A stretch of DNA of 64,000 nt from Sordaria brevicollis (lineage: Eukaryota; Ascomycota; Sordariomycetes; Sordariales; Sordariaceae). The stretch is from the NCBI GenBank assembly GCA_033439795.1, contig JAUTDP010000004.1:186001-250000 (forward strand), in the 5' to 3' direction. Positions 24,169-58,844 of this stretch are shown piece by piece (the stretch's first letter is position 1; every line of letters begins with the position of its first letter). Below the pieces are notes generated by a model. It was given only the letters and a program-made list of their open reading frames with translations. It made no database searches and was not told where the DNA came from. The position numbers and the translations under genes are program-made.

Positions 24169-24191
24169 CCCAAAGAACGACCGTCCTCGCA

Positions 24192-24962
24192 ATGGCACCT
24201 ATCAGTAATAACATCACTGACACAATCACCACCGCCATAACCAACGCGATTGAGGGCCTCCCCAACTCGCCGCCCAAAGTTCCAATTACATTCAACTTCT
24301 ACCTCTCGCCCGGCCCCGAACCCGAACAATTCACCACGGCCCCCATCGACCCCGACCTCATGGCCGTTTCCACCATTTACGCCTCCTTCGCCAATTCCTG
24401 GATGGGGACAGTTGCCTTCGCCTCCTTCATCATCGGATTAGCCTCCTGGATTTGCTGGTTCCTCTGGCACCAGGACATGAGCGAAATGACCTGGACCTGG
24501 CGCTTCTGGGATAACTTCCGTTGGCCCATGACTGAGAAACGACAATTTCGGGCAGACCTCAAGGGAGGTGTCACGGACCTTCTCAACGTAACCGGCGACA
24601 CATATCGCCTAATGAAGGAAGGGTTCGGTGTCCTTGCGCACCAGAATGACCTGCTGTTGGAACAGAAGGGAGTCAAGATCCGACCGTGCATCCATCTGAG
24701 GGGGGAGGGCTGTGATTGTGGGCCCGACAGAGTGAAGTTATGGGTGAGCTCGGTGTGGGATGTGGGTCCGGGCCGGGGATGGAGGACTGATGAGGGTAGT
24801 GAGGGTGAGGGCAGTCAAGAGACTCTGCTTTCTCAGACATGGGCAGATTTGGAGCAGGGACTTGGGGCGGATGGGAGGAGTGATGAGACGCTGGTGGACG
24901 ACGAGCAGGAGGCAAGTTGTTTGCCTTTGGGACTCATAACCAAGATACGAAAGCGTGACTAA
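24192..24962 (+). CDS. Gene A: small membrane protein of the array family
   Basis: A single exon of 256 aa. The start MAPISNNIT is chosen because paralogue B also begins MAP and the leader resembles that of B; an upstream in-frame ATG lies inside the MITE. The N-terminal 70 residues are Thr/Pro-rich with an APIDPDLMA segment matching GPIDPNTAA in B. One hydrophobic helix follows (about residues 72-92, rich in Ala/Ile/Trp), then TWRFW...WPMTEKRQFR, which matches SWRFW...WPKTAKQESR in B. A helical stretch ends in VLAHQNDLLLEQKGVK and then RPC, the family motif. The C-terminal 75 residues are acidic with CDCGPDR. No known domain is recognised. It probably sits in an internal or plasma membrane with its long C-terminus in the cytosol (inference). 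The gene appears intact, but a MITE lies 17 bp before its start. Confidence 0.75.
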   Translation: MAPISNNITDTITTAITNAIEGLPNSPPKVPITFNFYLSPGPEPEQFTTAPIDPDLMAVSTIYASFANSWMGTVAFASFIIGLASWICWFLWHQDMSEMTWTWRFWDNFRWPMTEKRQFRADLKGGVTDLLNVTGDTYRLMKEGFGVLAHQNDLLLEQKGVKIRPCIHLRGEGCDCGPDRVKLWVSSVWDVGPGRGWRTDEGSEGEGSQETLLSQTWADLEQGLGADGRSDETLVDDEQEASCLPLGLITKIRKRD

Positions 24963-25251
24963 ATAAGAGGACGAGAGGAGACTGGTAAATAGTCCAAACT
25001 TGCTCCACGTGAGTTCTTTCGTTGATTGATAAAGTTTCAAGTCACATACCCAAGTACATTGGACACATCCGACCATTGAAAGTCAAAAACCGAATGAATT
25101 CCTCTTATAGCCCACCTAGAGGTATCAAAGGGCGGCTCCTCAGTCCTCACTGAGGTAGCCGTGCTGGCTTGTCATGGCGCCAGTGATTTCTGCCCCGGGC
25201 TTCAGACTTTCGTTGTGGCTTTGAAGGTTCTCTTCAAGTTGGGAAATTCTA

Positions 25252-25654
25252 GACACACATACGGTGAATTCTACACGCACACACGGCTATTTTTTAAGAG
25301 ACAAATTTTCGCCCAAGAAGATAATTATCGAAGGAATAAAAAACGTTTAATAATTTATTTAGGTTAATATACCTCCCCAAATTCTTTTTCCGTTCTCAAA
25401 TACCTTTAAAGTAGTATTTTTGGGGGGGTGGGAAAAGAAGAGTAGTACGTTGCAAACTTGGACCTCGCGAATGTAATTAATTATAAAAAGGGTTAACGAA
25501 AGCTTTTTGAAATGGGAAAAAGGCCTAAAGAGGGAGAGAAAGGCGTTCTTATTAATTTTAATTCTTTTATAGAAACGAAAAGCTTCTTTGGCAAAAGCGT
25601 TAGGGTTTTAGGTTTTGAGGCGTGTGTGCGTGTAGAATTTACCGTATGTGTGTC
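25252..25654. mobile_element. 403-bp mariner-type MITE upstream of gene B
   Basis: The 34-bp terminal inverted repeats begin GACACACATACGGT and match at 33 positions, the one difference being a G/A transition. The dinucleotide TA flanks both ends (25250-25251 and 25655-25656), as expected for Tc1/mariner-class insertion, although the flanks also allow a 3-bp duplication. There is no coding capacity. The interior is AT-rich with few CpA/TpG, so it has been RIP-mutated. The 12-mer TCTCTTCAAGTT occurs just outside both ends. Confidence 0.85.
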
Positions 25655-25697
25655 TAGATTTTCTCTTCAAGTTATCAGGTTCCACGTTCTCGTCGGA

Positions 25698-25712
25698 ACC
25701 TTGGGAATGCCT
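25698..25712 (+). promoter_or_regulatory. 15-bp element shared by the A and B promoters, B copy
   Basis: Identical to 23456-23470. It is followed at 25721-25743 by a 23-bp segment starting TGTAG and ending CCGTGGAA-like (here GCGGTGGAA) that recurs with 19 of 23 matches at 42018-42040 upstream of gene C. Confidence 0.55.
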
Positions 25713-25807
25713 TCACTACATGTAGCCCTTCACTGCGGTGGAACTGGCAACGCCAATTCACCATGCGCGCATGCGGCCTTCCTACCGTCAGAAGAAAGCA
25801 TCTTCTC

Positions 25808-25816
25808 TAAATAAAA
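25808..25816 (+). promoter_or_regulatory. TATA-like box of gene B
   Basis: TAAATAAAA lies 218 bases before the ATG of gene B, in the position where A, C and E have TATA-type boxes. Confidence 0.4.
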
Positions 25817-26025
25817 TTTTCTGAACTCTGTGCCTCGCTTACACACCTGCCTCTAGTCCAGTACCACAATTCTTGTTTCCATGTTGTCAACGACCGACAA
25901 ATAACAGGGGCCATGAAGCATTTCTAGCAAGGCCTCGCACTTCCACTTGTCGAACACACCCGACACAACCCACGACTTTTACGCAGCCCAGTCACCCACA
26001 AAAATCACTCAACTAGCGGTACACA

Positions 26026-26976
26026 ATGGCACCCACCGGAGCCCCCACTGCCATCGCCGAAGCCGTCACATCCGCAATCAACAACGCCCTCCTCCAAAAC
26101 CTACCTCTACCCAATGGCCCTTCCGACGCCACGGCCACGCTCAACAAAAACACACAAATCAGCACCACGATAACCTACACACAATTCAACAACACCTTCA
26201 ACCTCCTCCCCGAACCATTACAGGTATCCTCCACCACAAGCGGCACAGCCACCGGCCCCATCGACCCCAACACAGCAGCCATCTTCTCCTTCCTAGCCTC
26301 CCTCGGCAATGCCTGGACAGGCGGCGTCAGCTTCGTCGTCGTCCTCTGCTGTCTAGTCTGGGCCCTCTCCAAGCAGCACTGGAAACGCATGTGCAGGGGC
26401 AGGGGCATGATGAGCTGGCGCTTCTGGCGGAGTGGTTCCATGAGTTGTCTGGTCTGGCCCAAGACCGCAAAGCAGGAGTCGCGAGAGGCTATCGTGGAGA
26501 TTGGCAGGCGGATCAAGAACGAGAACGCGGAACATTATGGCAAGGTGGATGACCGGTTGCAGGTCTTGGTGAACCAGTTTGATGTACTTCTTGGTCATTT
26601 GGGGGTGAAGAAACAAAAACGGGACAAGCACGAGCCGTGTCTGGCAGTGCAGGGGCACTCGAGGATGGAACCTGAATCTTGCGGCCCGAAGAGAGGATGC
26701 GACCATTCTAGAGGTACATATACTTGGGAGCGGGAAGAGTCGAGACCGGCGGCGGCGGCGGCGGGCTGGGAGGTCAGGAGCATGACGACGCTGGTGGGTG
26801 CTCCAGCACCTGAGGTTGAATTGCCTAGTGCTTGGAAGAGTGTGTCGGAGGTAAGGGAGGAGAACCAGAGCTTGTCGGATTTTGGAAGTCAAGAGAGGTT
26901 GGTGTGGTTAGGAGGGAGTGGAGAGAGTTTGGAGGCGGTGGGTCGTGTTGGTAGGACGAAGCGGAAGGAGGCTTGA
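26026..26976 (+). CDS. Gene B: small membrane protein, paralogue of A
   Basis: A single exon of 316 aa with a CACAATGGC start context. The N-terminal 95 residues are Thr/Asn/Pro-rich, with possible glycosylation sites and a GPIDPNTAA segment shared with A. One membrane helix follows (about residues 97-116, VSFVVVLCCLVWAL), then a basic KQHWKRMCRGRG flank, suggesting the C-terminus is cytosolic. SWRFW and VWPKTAKQESRE match A, and a helical stretch ends VLVNQFDVLLGHLGVK, the family motif, followed by PCL and SCGPKR. The last 100 residues are polar and probably disordered. No known domain is recognised. The Copia element at 26983 inserted only 6 bp after the TGA, so the original terminator now lies beyond 41969. 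Confidence 0.78.
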   Translation: MAPTGAPTAIAEAVTSAINNALLQNLPLPNGPSDATATLNKNTQISTTITYTQFNNTFNLLPEPLQVSSTTSGTATGPIDPNTAAIFSFLASLGNAWTGGVSFVVVLCCLVWALSKQHWKRMCRGRGMMSWRFWRSGSMSCLVWPKTAKQESREAIVEIGRRIKNENAEHYGKVDDRLQVLVNQFDVLLGHLGVKKQKRDKHEPCLAVQGHSRMEPESCGPKRGCDHSRGTYTWEREESRPAAAAAGWEVRSMTTLVGAPAPEVELPSAWKSVSEVREENQSLSDFGSQERLVWLGGSGESLEAVGRVGRTKRKEA

Positions 26977-26982
26977 AGTTAC

Positions 26983-27177
26983 TGTTGAAGTGGATGGAGG
27001 AACGAGAGGAACGAAGGCATCACGAGCAAAGAGTGTGTGTAGAATGGTGGTGAATTTGTTAATTGAAGAAGAAGAAAGAGGAGGAGAGAGGGAAAATCCT
27101 TCGATATATATATAAGAATAAAATTTATATATAAATCGAGAATACTAAAATAGAGTAAATAAGGGTACCCTTTAATA
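26983..27177 (-). repeat. Copia LTR, left copy
   Basis: 195 bp. The outer (left) half is nearly free of RIP, whereas the inner (right) half is strongly AT-shifted relative to the copy at 41774-41968. It ends TTTAATA where the other copy has CTTCAACA. Confidence 0.92.
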
Positions 27178-28785
27178 TTCCCCTTCGAGCAAAATATAGT
27201 CCCGAAGTAGTAAAAGTGAAGTTATTCCCAAATTTCTAAATTCGTCCTCTTTTTCTTTCTTTAAAGTATTAAATATTAAATCGTAGGCTAATAAAAAATT
27301 TAAAGGGAAAAAGGTTTCTACGAAATAATAACTAAAATTTTCTAAACTTTAGAAATAAAACCCAAAACTTTTATTAAAAATTAGAAAATATGAAAATATT
27401 TCGTATAAATAAAATATCGAAAAACCGATAATAGATTTAATAAGAGTTCGTTAAATTAAATAAAATAGTAGTAATAATATATACGTTTAATTAAGAATAG
27501 TCGAGAAAATTATTTATAAATTGAATTAGGATATTTCTTATATAAAATGAATTTCGCAGGATTTGAAAAATCGCGATTTAAGTCGTCGGTTCGGATATAT
27601 AATAGATTGAAGGGTATTAAATTGATAAAGGGGATAACCCTTATATTTCTTTAATTGAAGAAATTTAGTAAATAAAAATTAGTTTAATATTATATAACCG
27701 GATAATATTAAAAAATGATAATAGTAATTTATAGGGAGTAATATAAAGTATATAGGCGTTTTTAATTTTAAAATCATAAAAATTATTATTTTAAAGTAAA
27801 TTTAATAATATAATGAATAATTAATATATTTGTAATTAAAAATTAACGTAACCCTAGATTCTATTTAAATTAGAAGAATTTATTAACGGGTAGCGCTTTA
27901 GTAAAATTATTAATAATTTATTTATTAATTAAAATATCTTTAAAATCGACTTCTCCGGAAATTTATTTTTCGCGGTAGAAAAAGTATTAAATATCGATAT
28001 ATTTAATCCTAATATAAAATTTAGGGTTTTTAATTAAAATAAAGGCTTTTTAATTATTATTAAAAATAATAATTATTAATAAGTCTTTTAATTATTTATT
28101 TAATTCCTTTAATAATCGTTGTAATTAAATTACTTCTTTAATAATTTAGGTTTATTTAATTAATTTTACTTCGTAAAAAGATAGGGTAATAATAATTTAT
28201 TTTTTAGAGTTTTAATTAATAATTACGCTTTTAATATTAAAAATATAACCGGATATAGACCGACGTTTTTGGGTATTATTAATCTAATTTGCGTTAGTAA
28301 AATTGGATAGGGATTTAATATTCTTTATATAAATAAATTTTAGGTTAATTATATTTTAAAAATATTTAAAAATGCGTTTTATTATATTAATATATACTAT
28401 AATTAATTTTATTATATAACGGCTATAGAAGGATATAGCGAATATAATATTTAGACGTACATTGAATATAACGTATATTAATAATCCAATAGCGTTAATA
28501 TATTAAGTCTTTATTTTATTATTAATAATAAAATCGTTAAGAGGTTTAAGGATTTTTAAAATTTGTATTAATATTTTAATATATTTAATATCCTAGAGCC
28601 CGAATTATTTAATAATTTTTTTTAAATAATTTTTTTATAATAATTTAATAATATAAATAAGGCGATCCCAGGAAATAATTATCCCGAAATAATATAAATA
28701 AGGATTTATATTTAATATTTTAAAGCGTTCGTTAAATAAATTTTTTAATAATTTTATTTTAATTTTAAACGGATTAATAATTAAT

Positions 28786-29110
28786 AAATTATTAACGTAA
28801 ACGGTAATATAAATATATTCTTTAACGAAAATACTATTATTAGTAATAAAGGTAATAAAGCCGAATTGCTTTAAAAACGTAATTAAAATATTATATTATA
28901 TTCGAAGGGATTATTTAAAATTATATAGGGCCTTATTAAATTTATAAATAAAGTTTAAGTCGTTATTAAAGCTAAAAAGTTATTCTATATAAATATTTTC
29001 TTCTATTACGTTATAAAGAAAAATAATTTGGATATTTATTTACTCTAATTTTAAATCGAAAGCGGTAATAATAGCGAAAATAAATTTATAATTTATTAAT
29101 TTAACGACGG
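28786..29110 (-). pseudogene. Copia reverse transcriptase remnant
   Basis: Read on the minus strand in one frame, with RIP stops at former Gln and Trp codons, this segment shows the Copia RT landmarks in order: an A-F-D-L-K-L-E block, a KALYNFK-stop-S segment (KSLYGLKQSPR in intact copies), a TFLKQFGF segment and finally TVYVNNLLII, the mutated YVDD active site at about 28788-28802. Asp to Asn changes are the expected G-to-A RIP outcome. Confidence 0.85.
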
Positions 29111-29609
29111 TAGCGAATATTTTATTATAATTAATCCTTTTTTCTTATTTAAAATTACGGACGATTTATCGAGCTTTATAATAGATAATTTCTTTATTAA
29201 CGCTTATTTTAATTTTATAGACCTATTTTCCCAAAAGAATACGGCGGTTTAATAGCGCGGGTATAAAATTCTATATATTATTATCGATTAAAGATTTATA
29301 TTTACTATTTATTATTTACTTTTAATTTAGTTAATAGGGGTTTTATAGCGTTTTTTTATAATTTTATAATTCGATAGAAGGGTTAACGATAATATTAATT
29401 ATAATATAAAATAAAATAATTATAATATTAAGGGTGAAGTATAATAATAATAATATATATAATTTAAAATAATAATTAGTAACGGTTTTAATATATTATT
29501 TATTATAAAGGTTTAACGTACTTCCGATAATAATAATATTAAAGGTAATATTTAAAAATATAAATAAAGGTAATATTAAAGATAGTAGGGATAATAAAAT
29601 AAAGGGATT

Positions 29610-29865
29610 TGTGAGAGCGTGATTCTACGAGAGATAAACTGCAAGACTAGAAGCTACAATTCAAAGTAAAATTAAGTGTAAAGAAGGAAAGGAAAAGTTA
29701 ATAAACGAAGGTATTGTGAATTTAGTATATAAGCCAAGTTTTATTATCCTATATCGCCTTCCTAATCCGGATCTATTTTATCGATAAGAAGTTAAGCTTT
29801 ATTTTATCCAATATATCTTAGGTCTAGTACCCTATCCTTAGTACCTATCCTGCTATATTATAATA
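29610..29865 (-). repeat. Gypsy LTR, left copy
   Basis: 256 bp. The outer (left) third retains CpA and TpG dinucleotides, while the inner part is AT-shifted compared with the right copy. Confidence 0.9.
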
Positions 29866-32829
29866 TTACCCCCCCTCCGGAAGAAGGTTTAGTCCTAGAG
29901 CCGAAAGAAAGAAAAGAATAGAAAGGATGAATAATTAATATTAAATACCGTAAAACGCGCGTCCGATTTTAAAAATATTGGACGGAAGAGTAAAATTAAC
30001 GTTAGAATCCCTTTATTTTATTATTATTATTTGTTTATTATTTTTTTAACCCGATTCTTTTATTATTTTTTTCTAATATTTTTTTAATATCTTCTTTTTT
30101 ATACTTTTATAAATATATTTTTTAATTTCGATTATTATTAGCCCTAAAAGGGGTATTATAGGGACGTTTATAGTATAACGGTTTATTATTAACGAGTAAT
30201 AGCCGTTATTAGTATTATAAATTATAGAATTTTGTATTCGATTTTTATTTATATTAAATATAATTGTATTTTTCGATTTCCTTATAATTATTATTATCCT
30301 ATTAATTTTAAATTAAAATATTATATAAATTATAAGCGTAAGCGAAGGTAAAGGGGAAATACGCCGCTATAAATAATACGCTATCCTTTATTTTTTATTA
30401 ATATTTCGTTATAAAGTTTAAAGTATAAGGGATTCGGGCGGGGCGTACAATTAAAATAGGGGAACTTCCTTTTTTATTACTTTTTTCGCTATAATCGTTT
30501 AAATTTTTTACCGTTTAAGGAATTTTCCGTTAATTTATTATCGTCCGTATATTTTTTTATTATAGTATCTTTTTTTATAATTTTAAATTAGTAATATAAT
30601 TACTTAGGTAGTTTTAATTTATTTTTATTTACTATATAGTACTTTTAAAGCTTTTATATTACGTTTTTAAAATTAAAAGTTTTATATTATATTGGATTTG
30701 GGTCTTATCCCTTTTAATTAATTTAGTACTTTAAGTATTTCTTTATTAATTTATATATAACGATGTTTTTAATTTTTTATTCTTTTTCGTTATTAATAAT
30801 TTCTCCCGTTAGGTTTTTATTGCTTTGTCCTAGAAGAGGGTTATTTAAATTTTTATACAATTTATTAGCGTAAAATACTTTAGATCCTTTTTAAATTAGT
30901 AGTATATTAAATTCGTATAAATATTTTTTTATTATTATAATTTTATATAGTATTTTTATTAAGGGGAAATTTAATTTATTATTCGGGCGGTTAATTAATT
31001 ATATTTTTTTAATAATAAAGATTTTATTTTTTATTTTAAAGTTTAGGATTTATTAATATCGATTGGCCTATATTATTTATTTTATTTATACTTTTTTTAT
31101 TATTTTCTATACTTTATTTTAGGTATTGTATAATCTTTTTATTATTTCCCTAATTTCGTTTTTGGATAATTTCTCTTTCGTTATTCCGTTAATTATTACG
31201 TTGGTTTAATTAATTATTAGGAGAAATTTTCGATAACCTAAAGTAATTTCGTATAGTAATAATTTATTTAAATTCTTATAGGGGAGGGTATTTTATACGA
31301 AATTTATAGCGGGTAGAAGGTTTAATTAATTATTTTAATTATATAAAACGAAAGGCTTTAATCTTTAATTTAAGTATTAGTTTATAATTTCTATTTATTT
31401 TATTGTTTGAAAGTATCCCGTTGTATTTAATTTTTAGCGAATATTAAATAATTGTAATAATTTTTATATAAATTCTAATATAAATTATAGCTTTTTGTTA
31501 TTAATTATTTTTTTAGGTAATTTTATTAACCGGTAGGGTCCTTATTAATATAATAGCGCCGCTTTAACGTTAATTACTATATTTTTATAGGGGGCGTACT
31601 ATAACGTTTTAGAATATCGATTAATAATAATTAGTATATTATTATAGTTTTTCTTATTTTTAAGTATATTTTTGAAGTTTATTATTAATAATTCTTAGGT
31701 TCTATATTTATTTTTTAGTAGTTTTATTTTTAGTAATTTTAGAATTTTATTTTTAAATACTTTTAAAAATCGGTAAGTTTAGTAATTATTTATATAGTAA
31801 TTTATATCGGTTATAAGTTTTAGTTATTAATATCGTATTATTAAAATTATTTTAATTTTATTTCTTCTTAGGTAGGCTATTAATAAAATATTATAGTATT
31901 CTTTAATAACCTTCGTACGTAAGTTATTTATATCCGGTATAATAAGTTTCTTATTATAAAATATTAGGTCCTATAATTTAGTTAGGCGATTATTTCCCTT
32001 TTTTATTTTAATCCGGTAAATAGAGATAGAATCGTTTATTCGGTTAATTTTTAAAATTTATTCTATTAGGATATTATTATCGATATTATATTTTGGTTTT
32101 TCGTTTAATAATATTAATAAGGTAAATTCCGTTATTTCGGTTAATTTTTCTCCTTTATTTTTTATATAGACGAATATTTCTCCTTCTTTCTTTAATAATT
32201 ATAATATTCTTTATGCTTCTTTCCTTTCTACTATTATTTTAATATTTTTTAATTTCTTTAATAAGGCGTTAGTAATTATATTATTTTTCTTTAAACGGTA
32301 AATTATATAGAAATTATACGTTAAGTGTATTTTTAATTAAATAATTTATTTTGAATTTAATAATTTCTTTATTAAAAAGTATTTTAATATTTAATAATTG
32401 GTAATAATGGTGAATAATTTTTCGGTATTAATTAATTTTAATTTCTATACTTTTATTCCTTTTATTATAATTAGAAATTCTTTATTATAAATAGGGTAAT
32501 TAAGTTTTACGGGTATTATTATTTCCGAATAGAAGGTTATTAGGTATTAATCCTTTTTATTATTAATAGTTTTTTTTTAAGAAAATACTCTTATATATAC
32601 CCCATTTAAAGTATTTATTTTTATTTTAATTTCCTTTTTATATTAATAATAAATTAGTATTAGGGCGTTTAATAAGGTTTCCTTTAACCGTTCGAAGGTT
32701 TATTAATATTCTTTTATTTATATAAATATTTAATCTTTTTTAGTTAAATTATTTAGTAATTGTATTATATATCCGAAGTTTTATACGAATTTGTAGTAGA
32801 AATTATAAAAATTTATAAAAATTTAAATA

Positions 32830-33180
32830 CCTTTTAAATTTTTGGGGATTACTTATTTTTTAATAATTATTACCTTCTTAAGGTCGATTATAATACCGTT
32901 TATATTAATAATAAATTTTAGGAATTTGGTTTTTATTATATAGAATTTATATTTATTAATATCCGTTTGGAGCCCCGTTTTTTATAATTATTTTAGGATT
33001 TATTTAATATATTGGACGTATTCCTTTTTAATTTTTAAAAACATTAAAATATCGTCCAAATATATATTATAGAAATATTAACCTTTTATTAAAATATCGT
33101 TAATTAGTTTTTAAAAGGACGATAAACTTCCGTATAATTTAAATAGGAATATATTATATTTATATACTTTAAAATTTATT
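32830..33180 (-). pseudogene. Gypsy reverse transcriptase remnant
   Basis: On the minus strand one frame gives KLINDILIKG, then YNIYLDDILM with the intact catalytic LDD at 33051-33059, then KTGLQTDINKYKF, TKFLKFIININGI and VIPKNLKG. This is the standard order of the Ty3/Gypsy RT (INDVLR, YLDDIL, NGLQ-KCEF, KFLGFI, PKNLKGVQ). Cys to Tyr and Gln to stop changes fit RIP. Confidence 0.9.
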
Positions 33181-36100
33181 TTGAATATTATTAAATCCTT
33201 ATAATTTAAAGCTATACGAATTCGGTAGAATATTTATTTAATATCGATTTTCGTAAAGATTTTAGTATTAAAAATGCGGGTTAAGGTTTTTTCGATTAAG
33301 GGTAACGGATATTAGTCTTTTTGGGTAATAATATTAAATTTTCGGTAATTTATATAGAATTTTAGACTTTTATTAATTTTAGGTATAAATAAAATAAATA
33401 TTATTTAAAGTATTAAATTCGCTTCGATAAAGCCTTTTTATAAATTCTCTATAATATATTTTTAATACTCTTTTAATTCCGTAATTATTATTCGATATAG
33501 CGGGTTAATATTTAAATCCTTTGGTCGTTTGCCTTCTTCGAATTTAATTTTATAATTTATATTTAATTTATATTTAAGTAGTATATTAGATTCTATTTTA
33601 TTAAAGATTTTTAATTCCTTTATTTTATAATAATTTAACGGAATTTTTATTAATACCGTTATTATATTTTTTAACGTATTTTTTAATTTTTCTTACCTTT
33701 TTTTTAGGGTATCGATAATACCGTTAATTTCGTATAAATTAATAATTTTAAGCTACGCTTTATTCTTATAAATATAATATTCGAAAATCTCTATTAAGAT
33801 TATTACTAAGTCCGTTAATTTTATTTTAATTTATACCTATTTCCTTTCTAATTTATAAGGACCCTTTGCATTTTTTAAGGGGAATAGTTTCTTGCCTAAT
33901 TCCTTTTTCTTTTTTTTTCCCTATTATTATTGTTTTTCTTTAATTAGAGGTTTTATTTCGTATAATTCTCTTTCTATTTTCCTTATAGTTTATTCTTCGG
34001 AGGATAAAGATAATAAACGATTAAATCGTATTTATAAGATTTTTAAAGGTCGGTATTTATTATTAAAGATTTTTTCCTTAGGTTTTATCTTTTTTTTACC
34101 CAATTTATCCATTTTTATTATTAATTCTTATATTTTCGATTAAATCGCTTTCTTATCTTTCCTCTTTTTATCCTCTTTGGCTATTTTTCGTTCTCTTTTA
34201 ATTATATCCCTCTAAAATTGGTTATCGTTTAATAATTCGATTAATTTATTTATTAAAATATTATTATTTTCTTTTAAGATTAGGATAGTATTTTTTATAA
34301 ATATTAATTTTCTTATTTAGTAATCCGGTAATATATTATTTTTTACTAATTATATTTTTCCTAAAATTATATCCTTCTTTAGTTGCAATAGTATTAATAT
34401 TTATTATCGGTTGTATTATATTCTTTAAATTTGGATAGCTCCTTTTATAGCCTTATTAATTTAGTCGGGTTATATTTTTTTAAACCTAGTAATATAATTA
34501 GGGTTAAAATTGTTATACTCTTTTAAACTTAATTTTTTGAATTTATTATTAAATTATTTATTTATTAAAATATATATATTTATTTTAATATCGACGAGTA
34601 CATTGTCGGTAATAATAGAGAATTTATTATTAATTATAATATATATAATAAAAAATTATTTACCGTTCTTTAAATAATTATTTAAATCGAAATTTAGGTG
34701 GGTTTAATTTAATTAATATATTAGAATTATTTCTTTTTTACTTTTTATATTTTTAACCGATATTTTTCCTAAAGTAGAAATTCTTCTTTAGGCGTTTAAT
34801 TTTCCGATTCCTAAAGGGAATTAAATTTATTAATATAATTTCCCTCTTCTTTAATTAATAGTTATTTATTTTAATTAATCGGTTTAGAATTTTGTAACGG
34901 TCTTTAAATTTGGTTAGCAATGGTATTTAATTTAGTTTTTAGTGCGTTAATATTATTAATTTTAGCTTTATTGGGATAAATTATTAATTAATATCCTATT
35001 TTATAATAATTGAAATAGCGGTTTTTAGTATTTAATTTCTTTATTTCTTCGAATGTAAATTATTAATATTTAGGGGTAATAATATATTAGGGGGAGGGTT
35101 TATTATTAAAAGTAAATAATTTCCGGTCTTATATTTTATCTTTAGAATATTAAGTATTTTTAGATTTTTATTCCTTTCTTTTTATAATTGTATTTAAGGA
35201 TTGAAGTAAATAGTAATACGATTCGAACGTTATTTTGGGGTTAAAGTATATAATTTCTATAGGGATTTTAAATTCCCGAATTATTTTCCGACGGAAATTT
35301 TACTTTTAAAGGTTATAAAGTAATTAACGGAGTTTAGCGAAATGTACGAATTTAATTTTGAAGTCGGTAAACGATTTTATAGCCTTTATTTTAAATTGTT
35401 TATAATTACTAATAGTTTTTTTATTAATATTATAATTATAATAATTATTCTAAAGTTATTCTAATAATTTATTAATAATTTTAATAGCTTCGGGATAATA
35501 GGGATTTAAATAGGGGAATATACCGTCGGTTATAGTTCCGCCTAACCGTAATATTATTTTATTTATACGGGCGTTTTTATCCTAGAAGTAGTTTCTATTT
35601 TATTTAAATTTATTTTTTATTTGGAAAATTTATATATCGAAAGAAATTTTATTTTAGGATAAATTATTATTCAATATAGGGATATTGGGGATTTTAGTAG
35701 ATTTTTTATATTTGCGTTTTTGGGGGACTAAAGGTCCGATAAGGGTATATTTATAATTATTTTAGTCCCGAATAGGAGGGTTCTTTTATTTTAGTAATTA
35801 GGCTCTTTTAAAGTTATTATCCTTATTATTATAATTAGAATCGTTTCCGGGTTCGTTGGGGTTTTTTTTGTAGTCCTTAAGATTTTGATTTAAAATAGCG
35901 TATTATACGGTAGTCTCCCGTTTGTTTATTTCGGCTACGGGAGTAACTACTTTAAGGATATTAGGAAATTATTTACCGCTTTTCTTTCTTATAGGAGGGG
36001 CTTTATTAATTATTTTAATACGTTTATTAATTAATTATTTGGTTTCCGATTACCTTTCTTAAAAATTAGGTATAGTATTAGCGTAAATTGCTATTATAGA

Positions 36101-37694: not shown

Positions 37695-37950
37695 TATGAG
37701 AGTATAATTCTATGAGAGATAAATTATAAAATTAGAAGTTATAATTTAAAGTAAAATTAAGTATAAAGAAGGAAAGGAAAGGTTAATAAATGAAGGCATT
37801 GTAAACCTGGTATATAAGTTAGGTCTTGCCGTCCTATATCGCTTTCCCAATCCGGATTTATTTTATCGATAAGAGGTTGAACCTTATTCCATCCGATGTA
37901 TCCTGGGTCCAGTGCCCTGTCCCTGGCACCCATCCTGCTATGCCATGACA
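37695..37950 (-). repeat. Gypsy LTR, right copy
   Basis: 256 bp. The inner (left) half is strongly RIP-mutated and the outer (right) half is GC-rich and almost unmutated, the mirror image of the left copy. Confidence 0.9.
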
Positions 37951-40900
37951 GGATTTACAGGCTTTCAGGCTTCGATAAATAAAGGATTTAAGGGATCCGG
38001 TAATTTAAATAACGATTTAAAATCTCCCCCTAAGTAAAATAATAAATTATTTAAAGTATAGGGGGCTTAAGGAATAAGGGAAATAATTCCCCTAAAATAG
38101 AATATTCCCCTAAAATGGGATACTCCTTTAAAAATTGCCGGTAGGTTGTACGGATTTTCTATATATTTATCGGCGGCTATAATCTTTTTAATTCCTATAC
38201 GGTTAATAATATAAGGGATTTATTTATTAAATATTATATTATTAGTAATAAAAACCCGTTTATTATTATTAATAAATATAATATAATTATAAGAATTATT
38301 ATAACCGAATAAACGATAAGGGGATTTAATAGAATATAATTTTCTATTAAAAACCTTCCCGGCTAAATAGTAAAATTTAAATGAATTTAATACCCTTAAT
38401 TATAATAAATCGGGTTTATTTCCGAATTAGGTTTTATAAGGGGTTTTATTAATAATCGAATTTAATAACTAATTACGTAAATATATAATAAATTATATAA
38501 AGTAGGGCTAATATTTAAAGGGAAATTTTATTTAATATAGTAATGTAATTAACCGCTCTAAAACAATATTATTAAATCTTTTAATTATACCGTTTTATTA
38601 ATATTATTTAATAGCCGTATATTATAATATAATATATTGGTCGTAATATTAAAAATATAATACTTCGCTTAAATTTTCGCCGGCTTAATTTAAATATACG
38701 TTAAAAACTTTACGCTTAATCGTTTTATAGCGGTTTATTTAATTAATAAAATATTCGTATAAATTTAATTTTCTTTCTAAAATATAAATTTAAACGAATT
38801 GAGTAAAATTATTAATAATAATTAATCAATAGCGCTCTTTATTTACGCCGTCGATTATTAGTAGCCCGGCGATATTTATATAAATTTATTTTAATAGACG
38901 TATACTTCGCCGAATAAAGCCAATATAAGGAATTTACATTAAATAATTAATTGTATAATTTTTATAAAAATAAATTATATTAACGGATTTTATACCCGTG
39001 GATATTATTTAAAGAGAATATAAATTCCCTTCGTCGAAGTAATTTAATTATCGGTATTATAATTAAAGAGATTAATTTAAAAGGTAGTAGATTTTTAAGG
39101 CGATACCGGTAGTAGGGTAAATAAATTAATTTAAGAAATGAAAACCTCCGATTTTAAAATTGGAAAAATGAAATTAATTATTAGCGAATATAATAAAGCG
39201 TTTATCGATAAATACAATATTATAAGAAACGTTAACTTTCCGAAGTTAAGAAATAAAAATAAAATTATAAGCGGCCGTAGGGTAAAAGTATATATTAATA
39301 AGTAGTAAATACTTTAATTTATTATTAAGAGTTATTCGGGCTTTAAATATACCGATATACGTTAATATAAATAAAAAGTTATTAATACCCAAAATAAAAA
39401 GCCTTTTATAAGGGCGAAAAAAAAATAGAATAAAATTATTTAATTAACAAATAAAATGGTTAATAATATTAATATTTAAAAAATACAGATTTTTTAATAA
39501 ATTTAAAAATAAATTAATTTTTCTTATAGTAAAGAGGGCTATAATAATTAAATTTAAGGAAGACCCTTCGGGGGGTATAATAGTAATAGATAATTATATA
39601 TTAAATACCGCTGTTATATTTAATTACTCTAATAATTTAGTTTCGGTATTAATATATTCAAATTAGTCTAGAAGAATAATTAAACGGGGGGTATCCTAAA
39701 TACAAAAACGTTTAAATAAAGGTTTATTAATATTATTAATAAAGGTAAAATTATATTTTTTAATATTAAAGGTATTTAAATTAACGTTACAGGCCGATAT
39801 ATAATTTTAATATTATTTATTAAATGAATTATTTTTCTTTTAAGGTTATTTTATTATATAATATCCAAAGCGTAATTTTCTAAATTAATTTTTCAATTCG
39901 GAATGAAATTTCTAATAATAATTATCGCTATATTTAAAATTATTATATTTATTATAAAGGGGTTAAATTATTTTACGTTTAAAATTTTTATTAGTAATTA
40001 TTTTAGTAGCGTAAAGTATTTTTCCTTTATAATTATTTTTTTTTTAAAATTTGGAAATTTATATATTAAAAATTGCTATAGAGAATAATATACTGGGTAT
40101 TATAATAATATTATTAGAACGAATAGGAAGGACGTAATTATTTTAGAAAAGGTTCTCTTTAAAATTATAATAACGGTCGTTAAAGCTTTATAAAAAGTAG
40201 GCGATAAAGAAAAGTTCGGGGATTTTAAAGGATTAATTAATTTAAATTATAGTAATATAAATATTATTATTTTTAATAGCGTAAATATTAACGTTATTAA
40301 ATTGGGATAAAAATAATATTTCTTAGCGTTAAATAAATTTTAGTAAATAAATCCAATTTGGCCGGAATTGCGGATTTTAGCCGCTAGGCGTTTAAAAATT
40401 TAATAAACGGTAATAATAAATTGTAAAAGAAGTTCGGGGGATTTAAAATCGATATAATTTTAATTTTAAATAAATATAATAATAATACCGACGAATTAGG
40501 ATTAATATATAAATTAATTAATAAAAAATTCGCAATAATTATTATTTTTCTATAAAGGTAATTATAATAGAAGGTTATTATTTAAAAAAGTAGTATTAAA
40601 GCCGGTAATACAAATATAATTATAAATAATTTTATTTTAATCGGTCTAATCCTTAATATTTTTAAATTTAAAAAAATTTTCTTAACCTTTAATATTAATA
40701 GGGATAAATATAATAATTAATTAATATTTACGTTAAAATGCGTAAATAATTACAACTTGAAAGGATTAAGTGCGGTTTAATGTTTAAAATATAATAAAAT
40801 AATAGAATTAAATAGTATCAAAATAGTAAAACTTTAAATATTAAATAGGTTAAAGGGTAAAAGGACGGTTAAAGGAGCCGAAGGGTTTAAAAAAAATAAA

Positions 40901-41756
40901 TAATATAATAATAAAACGGAAAGTAAATAGAAAAATATATTTTTAATATACGTAGAAAAGGTATTTAATAATACAATTATAATTTTTTTTATTAATTTTA
41001 AAAAATTATAAAGGTTTAAATATTTAATAATAATAAAAGGCCGAACGAAGGGCTAGAAATTATATTTTAAATATTTATAGGTTTAATCGTTTAGAAGTAA
41101 CGATTTAAATAAAAATTGCCGGTTTTAATTATTCGGGGGTAAATTATTTTATTAATTTTAGTCGTTCCGGCGGTATTTTCGGATATTTTTCTTTACCGGG
41201 CCTAATTTTTAGGACTTTAATATTTTAATACTCGTATTAATAATATAGCGAAAGCTTATTATAAGAATCGGTCGGTTAAACGGTCGGTCGATTAATCGGT
41301 CGATCGGTCGGTCGAAAATTATTTATTAATACGCTAATTAAAAGTAGGTAAAATTATAATATCTTTATAAATAAATTTTTTAATAAAAAACGTAAAGAAT
41401 TTTAATATTTTAATAATTTAAATATAATTTCGGGATTTTATATTAACGTTAAAATTTTATATAAAATTTAATATTTTACGGCAAATTTAGTAATTTAAAT
41501 TATAATATTTAATTCGCCGAATTTAAAGTAATTAATAATAGCGCGTTATTTCGACGTATACCTTCCGAAAAGGGAAAGAGGGGTAAGTATATAAACTACG
41601 TCTAATTTATATCTTTTTAGTTTTTTTAATTATAACGCGCAACGTTAAAACCGTAGGGTACCAATTTAAATACGTAAACGGCGAAATTATTCTAAGGTAA
41701 AAACGAAGTAATAAGGGTTAAAGTTGGAGGTAATTTAATTAATTATACGTATACGG

Positions 41757-41773
41757 AATCCGGGCTTATAATT
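41757..41773 (-). other. Probable primer-binding site of the Copia element
   Basis: Read on the minus strand, directly inside the 5' LTR, is AATTATAAGCCCGG. One RIP-type G-to-A change separates TTATAAGCCC from TTATGAGCCC, which is complementary to the anticodon arm of initiator tRNA-Met. Copia elements of insects and fungi are known to use this half-tRNA primer. Confidence 0.5.
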
Positions 41774-41968
41774 TATTAAAATAGATGGAGGAACGAGAGG
41801 AATGAAGGTATTACGAGTAAAGAGTATATATAGAATAGTAGTGAATTTGTTAATTAAAGAAGAAGAAAGAGGAGGAGAGAGGGAGAATCCCTCGATATAT
41901 ATATAAGAATGAGATCCATGTGCAGATCGATAATGCTAAGACAGGGTAGACAAGGGTACCCTTCAACA
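41774..41968 (-). repeat. Copia LTR, right copy
   Basis: 195 bp. The inner (left) half is RIP-mutated (it starts TATTAAAA instead of TGTTGAAG) and the outer 60 bp is intact, ending CTTCAACA before the GTTAC duplication. Confidence 0.92.
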
Positions 41969-41973
41969 GTTAC

Positions 41974-42717: not shown

Positions 42718-43158
42718 ATGGATCCTGCCACGCCCACACTGCGTCTCGTCGACATTGTCTCCCTCGCCGTACCTTTTGTCTGTTTCCTATTTATAAGCCA
42801 ATGCATCGGCTATTTCTTCCTCCCAGAGCCCAACCTTTTCTTCATCACCAGCATAATTTCGCTTGCGAGTTGCACAATCATCTTCAGTCTCTGGGGCATC
42901 ATTGCCGTTCAGAAAGAACAACTCGCAGAGCAGAAGATGACCAAAGTGTTGGTCGCGAAGGCTGACCTACACATGTTGAACTCATTCCAATTTCTGGTCG
43001 AACAACAGAAACAACTGGTCGAAGCTATCGAGAGGATAGAATATCCGGTAAAGACTGTGGCGTGGCAGGGAGATGTGCTGCTGAGGAAGATGGAGGTGCC
43101 TGATGGTCAGAGACCGTTTGTGCCTGATCGAAATATTAAGAACTCGTTTTGGAGGTGA
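42718..43158 (+). CDS. Gene C: two-helix membrane protein with coiled coil
   Basis: A single exon of 146 aa with a strong CACAATGGA start context. An in-frame extension upstream is less likely because it would cross the TATA box at 42550. Two hydrophobic helices (about residues 11-33 and 41-64) are joined by a tight FLPEPN turn, forming a hairpin. A coiled-coil-like stretch follows (VQKEQLAEQK...FLVEQQKQLVEAIERIE, about 65-107). The protein ends with the family motif GDVLLRKMEVPDGQRPFVP. Gene E shares the FLPEPN turn, the second helix and QKEQL. There is no known domain. By the positive-inside rule both termini probably face the cytosol (inference). Confidence 0.72.
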   Translation: MDPATPTLRLVDIVSLAVPFVCFLFISQCIGYFFLPEPNLFFITSIISLASCTIIFSLWGIIAVQKEQLAEQKMTKVLVAKADLHMLNSFQFLVEQQKQLVEAIERIEYPVKTVAWQGDVLLRKMEVPDGQRPFVPDRNIKNSFWR

Positions 43159-43555: not shown

Positions 43556-43978
43556 ATGGAATCCCCCCAACTCACCCCCCTCATCAACACACTACGCCAA
43601 TACCTCCCCTACCTCCCATGGGCGGTCGGCCTTCTGTCACTGATCTTCGCTACCAACATGATGATGGGCTGGACCATGACCGTCATCATTGACAAGATTT
43701 ACAAAGAGCAAACCGAGCATCTACAAGCCATATCGGTACACGCGCGTACCCACACCGAGACATTGAAGCAACTTGGGCCCATGATGGTAGCGGTGGAGAA
43801 GAGTGTCACAGTCCTGGAGACCCAGGCAAGACAGCTGGATGCACTGCTCAAGGTGTCTGGTGTAAAAGATGGAGAGAGGCCGTGGATGCCCTGTCATGTT
43901 AGGCTGGGACTGCCCAATCGTTGTGAGAAGCAAGATCGGTTGGGAAATTGTTCGGTTCATCTTGATGCCCCTGGGTAA
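43556..43978 (+). CDS. Gene D: one-helix membrane protein with coiled coil
   Basis: A single exon of 140 aa. A short polar N-terminus is followed by a membrane helix (about residues 18-45, WAVGLLSLIFATNMMMGW), a coiled-coil-like region (about 46-96, with EQTEHLQAISVH and VAVEKSVTVLETQ) and the family motif LDALLKVSGVKDGERPWMPC at about 94-113. The VLETQ...LDALLKVSGVK segment lines up with VLVNQFDVLLGHLGVK of gene B and VLAHQNDLLLEQKGVK of gene A; the DGERPWMP part lines up with DGQRPFVP of gene C. D therefore links the two subfamilies. Four cysteines lie in the last 30 residues. A GTGAGT donor at 44032 lies after the stop and may define a 3'-UTR intron. Function unknown. Confidence 0.72.
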   Translation: MESPQLTPLINTLRQYLPYLPWAVGLLSLIFATNMMMGWTMTVIIDKIYKEQTEHLQAISVHARTHTETLKQLGPMMVAVEKSVTVLETQARQLDALLKVSGVKDGERPWMPCHVRLGLPNRCEKQDRLGNCSVHLDAPG

Positions 43979-44173
43979 CGACCCGCGGAGGAGAAGTGAA
44001 AGTGGTGAGCTGGCCTCGGTTTCCTTCCCTGGTGAGTTGTTCTTCCCTTCCGACTCGACCTGAATTTGCGACGTAACTAATTCGTTCCTGACTCTTGTAC
44101 AAAAGGCACGCAAATTCGTGATTGTTCATGGGGATGGTGAAAGGGCCGTGTTGTGGAGGGAAGGTGACAAAAA

Positions 44174-47100
44174 TGGAGCTTAACTTACCGCACCGGGGTC
44201 GTTGTCCTTATACACCCTATTTTGACTTTATATACCCTCGAGGACCCACATAATAGCCGATGACACCTAATATATAATTTCCCCTATTTTATATAGTAAA
44301 CTGGCCCTATAAAATATTTTAAACATTTAACCCTATATCCGAAAAAAACTTTACAATTATTACAATACATTTACATAAGTAAAATATCCCGCAAAGCCAT
44401 CCCAATACAAATAATTTACATATACCGCACCTTATACCCTATAACCCCCTAAACTAATTGCGCGTAATCGATTAAAATTATTAATAAAATTATTTATATT
44501 ATTATTATTATCGTAATTAATTACTTACTTTATTGTAATATTTTCTCGAGCCTTTTCTCTAATTAATTTTTATACCGCTAGCGACGGCGACCGGTCCCCT
44601 CCTCTTTTTCCCTCTTCTAACGATTATAGCGATTATAGCGATTATAGCGATTATAACGATTATAGCGACTATAGCGATTATAGCGACCGCGAGCAATCCT
44701 TTATATTTAGTTAGTAATAATCCTCTATTAATATTTCTAGCGCTAGTGAAAGCGAATGGGATAATAATAGCGATTAGTCCCCTTCCCCCGACGAGCGCCC
44801 CGATAAGCGCCTTAACGAGCGCCCCGACGAGCTCTTTAATAATAGTATTGTTACCCTTACTCCTTTTTAGCCCGTTTAATCGGTCGATTTTAATAATAAA
44901 TTCTTTAATATAGGCCTTATAATATATAAAGTAATAAATAATATTGTATTAGCCTTTTGCCGCCGTTATATAATATTAGTAATAATATAACGTATACGTT
45001 CTTTAGAGGGTAATACCCGGGTAAATAATAAACTCTCTTTTAGTTAATTATAATATAAATACGCTAAATATTACGAGTACTTTATACCCAAGGAGGTTAT
45101 ACAATTTCGAAGGGGTTTTAAGAAAATTGCGCGGGGCTATCTATTTAGGCTTAATTTTAAGCGCGTTTTAATAATTAACGATAATATAAATAATAATAAT
45201 ATAAATGAATTTTATACTTTTACGGCTATTAATTTCTAATATTAAAGGTACTTTTTAATTATTATTTTAACTACCTTTCTAATTATTCGTTTCGCTATTA
45301 TAAAAGAGGAATTAAAGTATATTTATTACTTCTTTATATAATAGGAGTTAACTATCCGTATAGTTAAATAATTTATTAAACGCAAATATCCTTACTTTTT
45401 ATTAACCGTTAAAAATTATTCCAATATATAATACTACGCCCATAAAGTATAGAAAAAAGGTTATACCGATATTTAAAATTTCGTTTAAATATTCGACCGT
45501 TAAACGGATTTCGATTATAATAATAGGGAAATTATATTCGTAAAGCCTAATTTTTTAGACGAAGAGCGTATAATTTTCGATAAGGTATTTTGGGTTTTAA
45601 TTAATTAAAAGACTATTTAAAAGGATTATCCCTACGTATTAATAATTAATGTAATTTATAAAATTAATTACCTTTATAAACCGCTTATTATAAATATTAT
45701 TATTACGTTAACGTATAATACGGCGCCCGTATTTTAATATTTAATTAACGACGAATAAGAGAAGGGAGGTTTTAATTAATATTTTTAATAATTATAGGAG
45801 TTTATAAATTGGGAAGAAGTCCTTTTATCCGAAGTTATTATTATAAATAGCGATTTTCAATTTATTACCGCCCTACGCATTTATTTTTTTAATATATAGC
45901 GTTAATACTATATTTAGTATTTTAATAATAACGTTATTATAATTATTAAGAAATATTAGGTAAAGGAAGAGGTAGCGGGTAAGGTAAAGAAGGGGAAGGG
46001 GAAGGAGAAGGTAAAACGTAGTCGCTAATTTATTTAGTAATCGATTTAGTAATTATAACCTCTTTAATTTATTTAACCCCCTTAAATCGAGTTTATTAAT
46101 AATAAGGGTAATTTAGTAGAGTTATAGTATTAATATTAGAAAGTCTATATAATTATTAAAATTAGGGTATAAATAGGTTCGTTATTTAAAGAATTTGTGT
46201 AAATAAGGATTATTTTCTTTATTTATTAGTAATATATAATATTTAATAAGGGTCCTATTAAGTTTTTTAATATAAAAAATTTAATAGAAGTAACGTTTAA
46301 AGAAATTTAACCCCGTTTATTTAAATACTTTAAGGAGGAATTCCTATTTTATAAATTCGAATAAATTAATTATTATATTAATATAAATTTTAATTTTAAT
46401 TATAGGATTACTTCCCTTAATAAATTTATTAACGTTAGCGTTAAGGCGGAAAGGTTATTAGTACGTATTAATTTCGATAAGGTTTTTTAGGCCATTAAAT
46501 TTATTATTATTAAACGGTATAATACGTATAAAGAGTAAATCGCTACCTTTAATACCCGGGTATATTATAATTATTTATATAAAGGTTAGTTAAGTAATTA
46601 TACGCTTTAAATAACGGTATAAGGTTTAGATTTATTAGTAGAGTAATATAAAAAGGCTTTTATTACTATAAAATCTAATAAAAATCTTTACCCTTAAGAA
46701 TTCCCCCCTTACGGTAGTAATTTTCGAATTTAATATAGCCTCCCCTATACGTACGAACTATTAACGTAGTACGATTATAAGAATTAAGAAAAGCTATTAA
46801 TTAATAAGGTTAATTATTATTTATTTTGGTACTTCGTAAAGGAATTTAATACTTTAAATTAGTATTTATAAATTCGCTCCTCTATTAACGTAATGCCTAA
46901 GGGGCGCCCTAAAAATTAATATAATCCTTTTAATAATAAATTTATTATCCCCCCTCCTAAACGGACTATTAATTATATTAATAATAGCGGGCGAGCTAAT
47001 TGGATTTTTAACGCTATATAATATAATTTATTTCGAATAGAGGTCTTTAATTTTAATTTAAAAATTTTGGATATAGTAAATGAAGTGGCTAAAAATGAGG

Positions 47101-47970
47101 AAAATATTAGAGAAGGTATTAAAAATATTAAAGAGGGCGCTATAAAAGGTAATTATATTATTATTAGTAATAATATTTAATAATTTCAATTTTAAGTATT
47201 AATACGTATAAAGGGGGGTAGTAAAAGTAGGGGAAGTAGGGGGAAAAGGAGAGGGAAAGGTAGAGGGAGGGGCGCCGCTAGAATTACTTTAATTAGAATA
47301 ATACGTACTTTCCGTAAACGCGCCGCTTAATTATTACCCCTTAAAGATTTGAGCTTACTTCTACCCCTTCTATTTAACGATTCGAATTTACCGTTAGTCT
47401 TTATTATTAATAATAATATTATTATTTAAAAGGATATTAAAAAGGAATTTATTATTTTATTTAATTTCGCTATAGTAGTATAAAAAGAGAGGGTTATAAT
47501 TAAAAGGAGGGCGAAGGAAGAGGCGTTAAAATTTTAAAGGGTATAAATATACAATTTTAATTATTTTACTAATTTAAATCTATGTAGAGTTTAGCTAGGA
47601 GTTAGGGGTTACTTTATCGAGGTTAATAATAATAGTAATAGGGGTAACGGTAATACGGTTAGTAACGATAGTAAATAGATTTATAGAATAAGAGTAGGTA
47701 AATCCTTTAATATTACGTAGATATTATTAGATTATTATATTCAATACTATAAAATTATTATTAGATAATTTAGCGTACTACTTTTAATTTGGTATATTAC
47801 CTTTAATTTAGTATACTATGGTTTGACTTAGCGCACTATAGTATTCGAAATATTGAAAAAACGTAAATTTGTATGTAAAAACGGCTCGAAATTATAATAG
47901 CTGATATATGGTACATGAAGTTAAAAATGGTGTATGAGGATAATGACCCCGGTGCGGTAAGTCAAGCTCC
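44174..47970 (+). mobile_element. RIP-degraded 3.8-kb TIR DNA transposon, TSD AAAAAT
   Basis: Terminal inverted repeats of at least 42 bp start GGAGCTT and contain ACTTACCGCACCGGGGTC; they match at 38 of 42 positions, all differences being transitions. AAAAAT is duplicated at 44168-44173 and 47971-47976. The interior is AT-rich with CpA/TpG scarce. Plus-strand frames from about 44500 suggest one long, destroyed transposase gene. Its start encodes an acidic D-Y-S repeat. The superfamily was not recognised from the remnants. The outermost 100-200 bases at each end are much less mutated than the core. Confidence 0.88.
44622..44684 (+). repeat. 9-bp tandem repeat, GATTATAGC type
   Basis: Seven units of GATTATAGC with only two single-base variants (GATTATAAC and GACTATAGC). 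In the plus frame it reads Asp-Tyr-Ser repeats, probably an acidic Asp/Ser tract of the transposase before RIP turned Asp or Cys codons to Tyr or Asn. Confidence 0.85.
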
Positions 47971-47976
47971 AAAAAT

Positions 47977-48372
47977 GGAAAGTGGCGACGAGAATGGGGA
48001 AGCTTCATGGAAAAATCACCAGGATTCCCGCAAAATTGTATGTCGTAGAGTCTAGCGGTTCAAAGAACATCATGAACAAACTACAACTTGGGGGTACAAA
48101 GGGAACCTTTTCTATCCTCTCCCAACCAAACGAGCATTCAAATTGCCCTGCATGGCAAGATACTGTATATAGAGGAGGGAAAGTGTCGTTTCTGCCCCTA
48201 GCTAGGCGGAAGTTGTACCTATATCAACTCGATTCAGTCACTCTGATATCAGCCCAGGATCCAGTCCAAAAAAAAAGGAGAAAGATCAACTTCTCGCAAC
48301 TTTCTTCTTAACTACGTTGTAGACTCCATCAACCCCATACAGACTTTAACTTCCTCGCTACCTACCTTCACT
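47977..48372. other. Spacer and promoter of gene E
   Basis: Non-RIP sequence that before the transposon insertion lay directly downstream of gene D. A frame at 47982-48311 is open from an ATG but its product has no recognisable features and it overlaps the TATA box at 48166. It is not called as a gene. Confidence 0.45.
48166..48172 (+). promoter_or_regulatory. TATA box of gene E
   Basis: TATATAG followed by AGGAGGG, 207 bases before the ATG; nearly the same core as in gene C. Confidence 0.55.
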
Positions 48373-48815
48373 ATGAATCTCGATGAGGATTTAGAGCTTA
48401 TCGCGAATGTAGAGCTGATGTCAACTATTGCCATGCTCTGCGGCTTTAGCTTCACCATCTCTTTTCTTCCTGAACCCAACCTCAGAGCTATTTTCGCCCT
48501 CATAGCGGTATCCAGCTGGACGATCATCTTCAACTTATGGAAGCTCATCGCGTACCAGAAGGAACAACTGAGAGTCCTGCGTCGCTTGCAATAACCGCAA
48601 AGGGGTTTGAGGTAAGTTACACTTTCTTCCTAATTCCTTGTTATCATGCGGTAACCCTAATCGTTCGTTACTTTTCCAGACACACGGAAGGCAACACAAA
48701 GCGTATCTATAGGTTTTTTTCATGTTGGGAAGGTGGAAACAACGATGTTCTAGAAGACAAAGACAATGGAATAAGAAAGGAGCTAGACAACCTGCAAACT
48801 CTGCAGCCCCAATAA
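48373..48815 (+). pseudogene. Gene E: paralogue of C with an in-frame TAA
   Basis: Exon 1 from 48373 encodes two hydrophobic helices joined by FLPEPN (about residues 14-60) and then YQKEQLRVLRRLQ, closely like gene C. The frame stops at TAA 48592-48594 after 73 residues. Seventeen bases later there is a strong GTAAGT donor (48612) with a CCAG acceptor at 48679. Splicing there joins the same frame to an open stretch up to TAA 48815, so only the TAA at 48592 breaks a 124-codon two-exon gene. TAA is what RIP makes from a CAA Gln codon. The rest of the flanking gene shows little RIP. It may be a truncated 73-aa protein with a 3'-UTR intron, or a gene killed by RIP. The second exon product is polar and acidic and lacks the family C-terminal motif. 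Confidence 0.65.
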
Positions 48816-54622: not shown

Positions 54623-54668
54623 AGGATAATTACGGAAATAATATCCAATTTCTTTATATACGAAATGT
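54623..54668 (-). pseudogene. RIP-altered gag zinc knuckle
   Basis: Minus-strand translation reads HFVYKEIGYYFRNYPNY. The spacing is that of a CX2CX4HX4C nucleocapsid knuckle in which the second and third cysteines and the His have become Tyr, as expected from G-to-A changes. Confidence 0.7.
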
Positions 54669-58840: not shown

Positions 58841-58844
58841 TTTA

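Follow-up and report, generated by a model that had tools for sequence, protein, structure and literature searches.

Do the small membrane-protein genes clustered on one chromosomal segment of the fungus Sordaria brevicollis constitute a single family, and do they share a common working part? The five genes at issue, A–E, lie on the plus strand of a 64,000-nucleotide stretch (the window; C22:186001-250000, where C22 is a 4.23 Mb contig in an assembly of 53.08 Mb and 27 contigs). An earlier sequence-only reading described them as an array of five related genes with variable N-termini, a membrane anchor, a helical stalk, and a C-terminal motif common to all. Our analysis favors, with a probability of about 0.55, the interpretation that A–E and a sixth gene, F, outside the window, are a lineage-restricted family that arose as old local duplicates and diverged strongly, encoding membrane-anchored proteins in which it is the tail that works and is conserved. 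A single helix (A, B, D and F) or a helical hairpin (C and E) would lie in the membrane, and the helical stalk that would follow in A, B, C, D and F would end in a small tail in A, B and D, with a degenerate version in C. This tail (QxDxLLxxxGVK, PC, and a Cys/His cluster) would be kept while the anchor and N-terminus vary, and is probably a docking or metal-binding knob.

The relationships among these genes are evident from searches of the whole 53 Mb using eight protein queries (A, B, C, D, F, H, L and P0007, but not E, G, I, J or K), in which counts of copies are lower bounds. H and L are neighboring frames and P0007 is an outside relative, all described below. The detected relatives are confined to one locus, with all matches at E ≤0.01 located at C22:210-276 kb, self-matches of the queries aside. 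A and B align from residue 1 with 32% identity (E 2e-9 with A as query, 2e-8 with B), and share PIDP, a membrane helix, (T/S)WRFW...WPxT, and VLxxQxDxLLxxxGVK, all of which had been recognized in the sequence-only reading. Similarly, the hairpin and QKEQL noted for C and E are borne out by 64% identity over 36 residues from FLPEPNL to QKEQL (E 1.5e-7). D and F find each other at E 0.004 (D as query) and 0.01 (F as query). C and D align at their DGxRPxxP ends with 35–41% identity (E 0.008–0.009) in the 204 kb used for the motif (in six frames), profile-ranking and local alignment tests, although the match is weaker genome-wide (0.57 with C as query, 0.44 with D). Smith-Waterman z scores against 200 shuffles are 25.8 for A-B, 17.8 for C-E, 9.2 for C-D, 8.7 for D-F and 5.3 for E-F, and 11 of 36 pairs have p below 0.01 in a set without G and K. 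The H query matches four adjoining pieces (E 7e-32 to 0.03), and L, apart from itself, matches only places on C12 (0.3) and C13 (6.7); the C12 and C13 places, together with a C7 place matched by F at 0.58, were dropped by eye after viewing the ORF (open reading frame) lists. We also rejected a transposon-encoded family, as none of A, B, C, D, F, H and L had a second, nearly identical copy in the genome searches. The AT-rich blocks within the 204 kb, where heavily mutated copies could escape, yielded no family member at E up to 1.

D connects the two pairs, as had been proposed, because it contains the A/B motif exactly and can be aligned with the end of C. The exact pattern Q.D.LL...GVK occurs three times in the six frames, in A, B and D, and not in 20 residue shuffles; the pattern was derived from these three proteins, and the count alone is circular. 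DGxRP by itself is common (six matches vs 3.3 expected). In a scan of 177,295 windows, a 20-column profile of the D, P0007 and C tails places B at rank 1 among those not used in training; an A/B tail profile places D at rank 2, tied with an unrelated part of C. Alignment by hhalign of the A/B tail with the D/P0007 tail has a P of 7e-4, with a score matched by none of 100 column shuffles. By these ranks and alignments, the profile linkage of A/B with D, a check suggested along with the sequence-only reading, is above background within the 204 kb. The single-family link above background has two parts: A/B to D through the short tail, and C to D, E and F through alignments and profiles.

A, B, D and P0007 all carry the tail itself (QxDxLLxxxGVK and then PC), C has a partial, degenerate version (EVPDGQRPFVP without a subsequent Cys), and E and F lack it. 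The motif is therefore not common to all five genes, and the modular anchor–stalk–tail arrangement with variable N-termini survives as a recurring architecture with exceptions in C and in E, which ends shortly after QKEQL and has neither stalk nor tail. Within 30 residues after GVK, A, B and D each have three cysteines plus a histidine, arranged C-x7-C-x-C with the His between in A, and as listed in Table 1 for B and D, with P0007 having the same arrangement as D. Among windows from ten neighboring ORFs, 33 of 4973 contain three Cys in 30 residues, and 18 of 4973 also have a His; there is no such cluster in C, E or F. The cluster, which the earlier reading did not include, ties A/B to D a second time, if modestly, and one guess is that the tail is a metal site.

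The D tail is also conserved in a second source. P0007 is the sole protein outside this genome matched by a C/D/E/F profile (E 6e-9) in a search of 5.8 billion proteins; of 1235 candidates, four reached E 10 or better, namely three from this genome and P0007. It is 171 residues long and is present on two contigs, the longest of 90,655 bases. P0007 and D are 43% identical over 125 residues, including a 52-residue ungapped tail block (LETQARQLDALL...GVK....RPWMPC.VR.GL...CE.QD..G.C.VH) in which 34 of 52 residues (65%) are identical. This block is more alike than the diverged remainder, and the D tail therefore looks constrained. As a query in this genome P0007 identifies D (1e-23), F (4e-5), and nothing else. 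In single comparisons it aligns with the membrane helix and the beginning of the stalk in F (20% over 141 residues, E 2e-8), and with C from the membrane helix to RPxxP (23% over 119, E 1e-4). A scan of viral contigs yielded no P0007 relative. For A/B and H, the protein-database relatives are from this genome only (one search scored the best 7993 candidates), and the word filter of these searches can miss distant relatives.

Hydropathy predicts a single membrane segment for A, B, D, F and P0007 and a pair of segments each for C and E. Under the positive-inside rule, the stalk is likely cytosolic in B, E and C, judging from the Lys/Arg residues that follow the last segment; the next 15 residues contain five and no acid in B, four and one acid in E, and three and two acids in C. 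A structure model of D, of middling confidence (predicted local distance difference test score [pLDDT] 69, predicted template modeling score 0.34, four sequences), predicts a single helix for residues 7-100, a shape that would resemble anything in a fold search. D, F and P0007 show significant heptad-like periodicity (p 0.004–0.04). The stalks may oligomerize, with the tail perhaps binding a partner or metal.

No known family had been recognized, and the searches agree. Pfam matches of A–E are all below cut-off: the rOmpB passenger for B (E 0.0017), Aph-1 for C (0.017), FAM25 for A (0.098), three families for D (0.04–0.07), and one for E (0.29). F matches SKA2 at E 0.0007, but its 19.7 bits fall short of the 30.1 cut-off. 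The HET domain (PF06985) is not matched in A–F or P0007, and there is no SNARE/Sec20 match above cut-off, the nearest being Sec20 for P0007 (E 0.019, 15.4 bits vs 27). Searches of the PDB with two profiles (A5 and A1) gave nothing below E 0.09, and no description of this family was found in titles and abstract openings in the literature.

All five genes are open at the positions reported in the sequence-only reading, although the end given for the array (48815) belongs to another frame, with E ending at 48594 including its stop. A, B and C are in the protein database at the lengths in Table 1, along with a 104-residue short form of D, all on the same contig. We prefer the 140-residue form of D, because F aligns with D from residue 1. 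The start contexts of A (CCTCGCAATGG), B, C (CCCACAATGG) and D end in CAATGG or AAATGG, the usual type in Neurospora, and those of E and F are CTATGA and ACATGA. The GC content at third codon positions (GC3) is 0.60–0.69 in A–E and 0.71–0.72 in F and H; a mean of 64% is given for Sordariaceae (PMC12730877). Codon-usage z scores against a composition null are 3.6 (A), 5.1 (B), 2.1 (C), 2.7 (D), 1.6 (E, the weakest among the genes scored), 4.5 (F) and 8.1 (H). The codon test gives only modest support, because the scores of A, B and D are each beaten by one or two antisense frames, and both HET reference ORFs score slightly negative. A continuation of E beyond its stop was rejected by eye. We note a GTAAGT...TTCCAG segment seen by eye after the E stop (window 48612-48680), a possible intron in its 3′ untranslated region.

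Several observations weigh against a single family with a conserved working tail. F has no tail, and E, with neither stalk nor tail, may be a remnant. The link from A/B to D spans about 25 residues, its own hhalign probability is 26%, and full-length Smith-Waterman comparisons of A-D and B-D fail p 0.01, as do A-C and B-C. In a 29-column D/P0007/C profile B is third among untrained windows, and A is outside the top 12 windows with both D/P0007/C profiles. Comparisons of P0007 with A alone (E 0.21) and B alone (E 0.012) are unconvincing. The clustering of tail cysteines is modest (hypergeometric p 0.012 for A, 0.021 for B, 0.009 for D and 0.038 for P0007), and the spacing differs among tails. 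Cytosolic stalks are weakly supported in A, D and F, with one or two Lys/Arg vs two to five acids in the 15 residues after the segment. A coiled coil in A, B and C is unsupported because heptad periodicity is not significant (p 0.09–0.23). Finally, the D tail is poorly modeled, and the AlphaFold prediction for A (two sequences; pLDDT 33) is uninformative.

Table 1. Positions of the array genes, their neighbors, and the surrounding elements; positions are those of the window unless prefixed C22
Feature	Position	Strand	Details
Gene A	24192..24962	+	256 aa; frame without stop 24192-24959; ~65-residue N-terminus; membrane helix ~73-91; TWRFW...WPMT; QNDLLLEQKGVK; Cys-containing tail
Gene B	26026..26976	+	316 aa; frame without stop 26026-26973; paralogue of A; membrane helix ~96-114; QFDVLLGHLGVK; tail C-x13-C-x5-C-x-H
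Gene C	42718..43158	+	146 aa; frame without stop 42718-43155; two hydrophobic segments flanking FLPEPN; QKEQL; stalk; DGQRPFVP end
Gene D	43556..43978	+	140 aa; frame without stop 43556-43975; one predicted membrane helix; long predicted helical stalk; QLDALLKVSGVKDGERPWMPC; tail C-x9-C-x8-C-x2-H
Gene E	48373..48594	+	73 aa; frame without stop 48373-48591; paralogue of C with the hairpin but no stalk or tail
F	C22:270153-270593		outside window; B0T20DRAFT_477452
H	C22:272883-273863	minus	open frame; identical to hypothetical protein B0T20DRAFT_495651 of Sordaria brevicollis (Sordariaceae)
ORF K	C22:278040-278529	same as L	
ORF L	C22:282326-282779	same as K	
HET-domain ORF 1	7400-8746		domain search
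HET-domain ORF 2	10978-13872		domain search
AT-rich RIP-mutated block	27300..41900		between B and C; GC 0.21, TpA/ApT 1.17, second index 0.27
AT-rich RIP-mutated block, 35 kb (start)	49200..64000		separates E from F
RIP-mutated DNA transposon, 3,794 bp	44176..47969		inverted ends GAGCTTRACTTACCGCACCGGGGTC; GC 0.27, TpA/ApT 1.32
Second transposon, 3,796 bp	C22:278530-282325		between K and L; 8-bp duplication TTTCCAAA
Inverted-repeat element, 360 bp	23808..24167		8-bp target duplication CCCCAAAG (23800-23807, 24168-24175)
Element, 569 bp	C22:272282-272850		between G and H; inverted ends CAGCGCTAGAGATAAATCAA, 8-bp duplication ATAGGAAG

The array is not limited to five genes, and the cluster extends past the window to F, which groups with D, and then to H, broken G and I, J, and the split K/L. 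At least three of these neighbors are broken (G, I and K/L), with A, B, C, D, F and H open. G matches H in two frames and I matches it as two pieces about 1 kb apart; we interpret K and L as pieces of a single gene, interrupted by a 3.8 kb transposon mutated by repeat-induced point mutation (RIP). A doubtful but possible explanation is that this is an ordinary orphan neighborhood, in which old duplicates drift under weak constraint in a gene-poor region and most copies have little or no function. The broken neighbors (including J, which may be out of frame) are consistent with this, as are Neurospora knockouts of 367 lineage-specific genes, of which three have a sexual-development phenotype (PMC10684091). 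Drift does not, though, readily generate the contrast between the 65% identical D/P0007 tail block and its more diverged surroundings, and the maintenance of full frames in A, B, C, D, F and H at GC3 of 0.60–0.72 also argues against it.

The setting is as the sequence-only reading described, beside RIP-mutated DNA and downstream of HET genes. Two HET-domain genes (PF06985) are 10–17 kb upstream of A, the nearest at about 10 kb, and at least four enzyme-like ORFs separate them from it. The first of these (window 7400-9867) occupies two overlapping frames and the second a single frame, and an intron or frameshift is possible. The AT-rich blocks are heavily RIP-mutated as judged from TpA/ApT (1.12–1.32) and (CpA+TpG)/(ApC+GpT) (0.22–0.28), which are 0.51–0.86 and 1.13–1.34 in the gene islands. 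The array is about 210 kb from the start of the contig, and there is no telomere array within the first or last 3 kb of C22. In Neurospora, orphan genes are numerous and cluster with HET genes among large non-coding spaces (PMC10684091), and the setting alone is therefore no evidence for an allorecognition, drive or stress role, which is speculative for this array. The account of those lineage-specific genes describes a similar picture (mostly no known domains, paralogue clusters, non-coding spaces, proximity to HET genes), from which this locus differs in that enzyme genes intervene before the nearest HET gene and the outer 3 kb of the contig show no telomere array that would mark a chromosome end. 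We conclude that this is a genuine new family within a familiar kind of setting, and by analogy with other HET-linked orphans a tentative suggestion for its role is recognition or scaffolding by proteins tethered to a membrane in the hyphal or sexual phase.

An improbable alternative is a selfish or recognition locus, encoding a spore killer or incompatibility factor acting through membrane disturbance or aggregation, with the other copies being resistance factors or relics. The broken copies, the RIP-mutated transposons and the HET genes close to the array are compatible with this, as is the size of C with its two predicted membrane segments. Spk-1 of Neurospora sitophila is a small spore killer with two predicted membrane segments and belongs to a diverse, lineage-restricted family (PMC8092558). 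However, the C/D/E/F profile search revealed no Spk-1 kinship up to E 10 (the presence of Spk-1 in the database is unchecked), its layout of two outer flanks around a central cytosolic region is unlike a hairpin followed by a long stalk, and the available part of that account describes neither a stalk nor a Cys tail (PMC8092558). Somewhat less probable again is a new allorecognition or drive locus in which stalks would pair selectively, the Cys/His tail would signal, and diversity would come from duplication, RIP and transposons. A vesicle-transport protein, the t-SNARE SEC-9, is an allorecognition target watched by the PLP-1 receptor (PMC12881547), and the array proteins differ in having no SNARE family match above cut-off. 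HeLo/HELL and related domains found in incompatibility proteins are likewise helical and membrane-directed (PMC12881547), but here there is no such Pfam match, and the D model has a hydrophobic helix continuing into a single long helix with no bundle. Convergence, in which hydrophobic and amphipathic helices simply look alike and the tail motif is chance, is very improbable, since even though weak pairs (A-H, B-E, C-L, D-E and H-L) may reflect shared hydrophobicity only and the tail pattern was picked after the sequences were viewed, it does not account for the FLPEPNL and QKEQL stretches that C and E share exactly, the locus-only matches in 53 Mb, P0007, or the column-shuffle and ranking tests; for C–F it is already unlikely.

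Returning to a lineage-restricted family with a conserved tail, few HET-adjacent orphan genes have an anatomy that suggests experiments, and this locus offers an anchor–stalk–tail arrangement, conservation of the tail beyond this genome, and transposon records. Polymorphism between strains would make it a direct candidate for a recognition or drive locus; otherwise it is an example of a duplicate family persisting in islands within RIP-mutated DNA.

Transposon insertions are recorded at several positions, and together with RIP they may have dispersed the genes and broken neighbors in a birth-and-death pattern. The 3,794 bp transposon is inserted between D and E and is flanked by an 8-bp target duplication, CAAAAATG (44168-44175 and 47970-47977); its first 19 bases are nearly identical to those of the 3,796 bp transposon. 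The 360 bp element stops 24 bp before the A start codon, and an in-frame upstream ATG (24135) falls within it. Between A and B (window 25243-25663) there is an inverted repeat with 46 nt arms around 329 nt, probably a miniature element. Further downstream, the ORF J (C22:276159-277339) passes into a different frame with no intron visible, and a frameshift, intron or assembly error is possible; its sequence is coiled-coil-like, with nothing above the membrane threshold. H and its broken relatives G and I (C22:271427-275956) represent a second clustered orphan family, with a DENERFG stretch common to H and G, and ENERFG in one piece of I.

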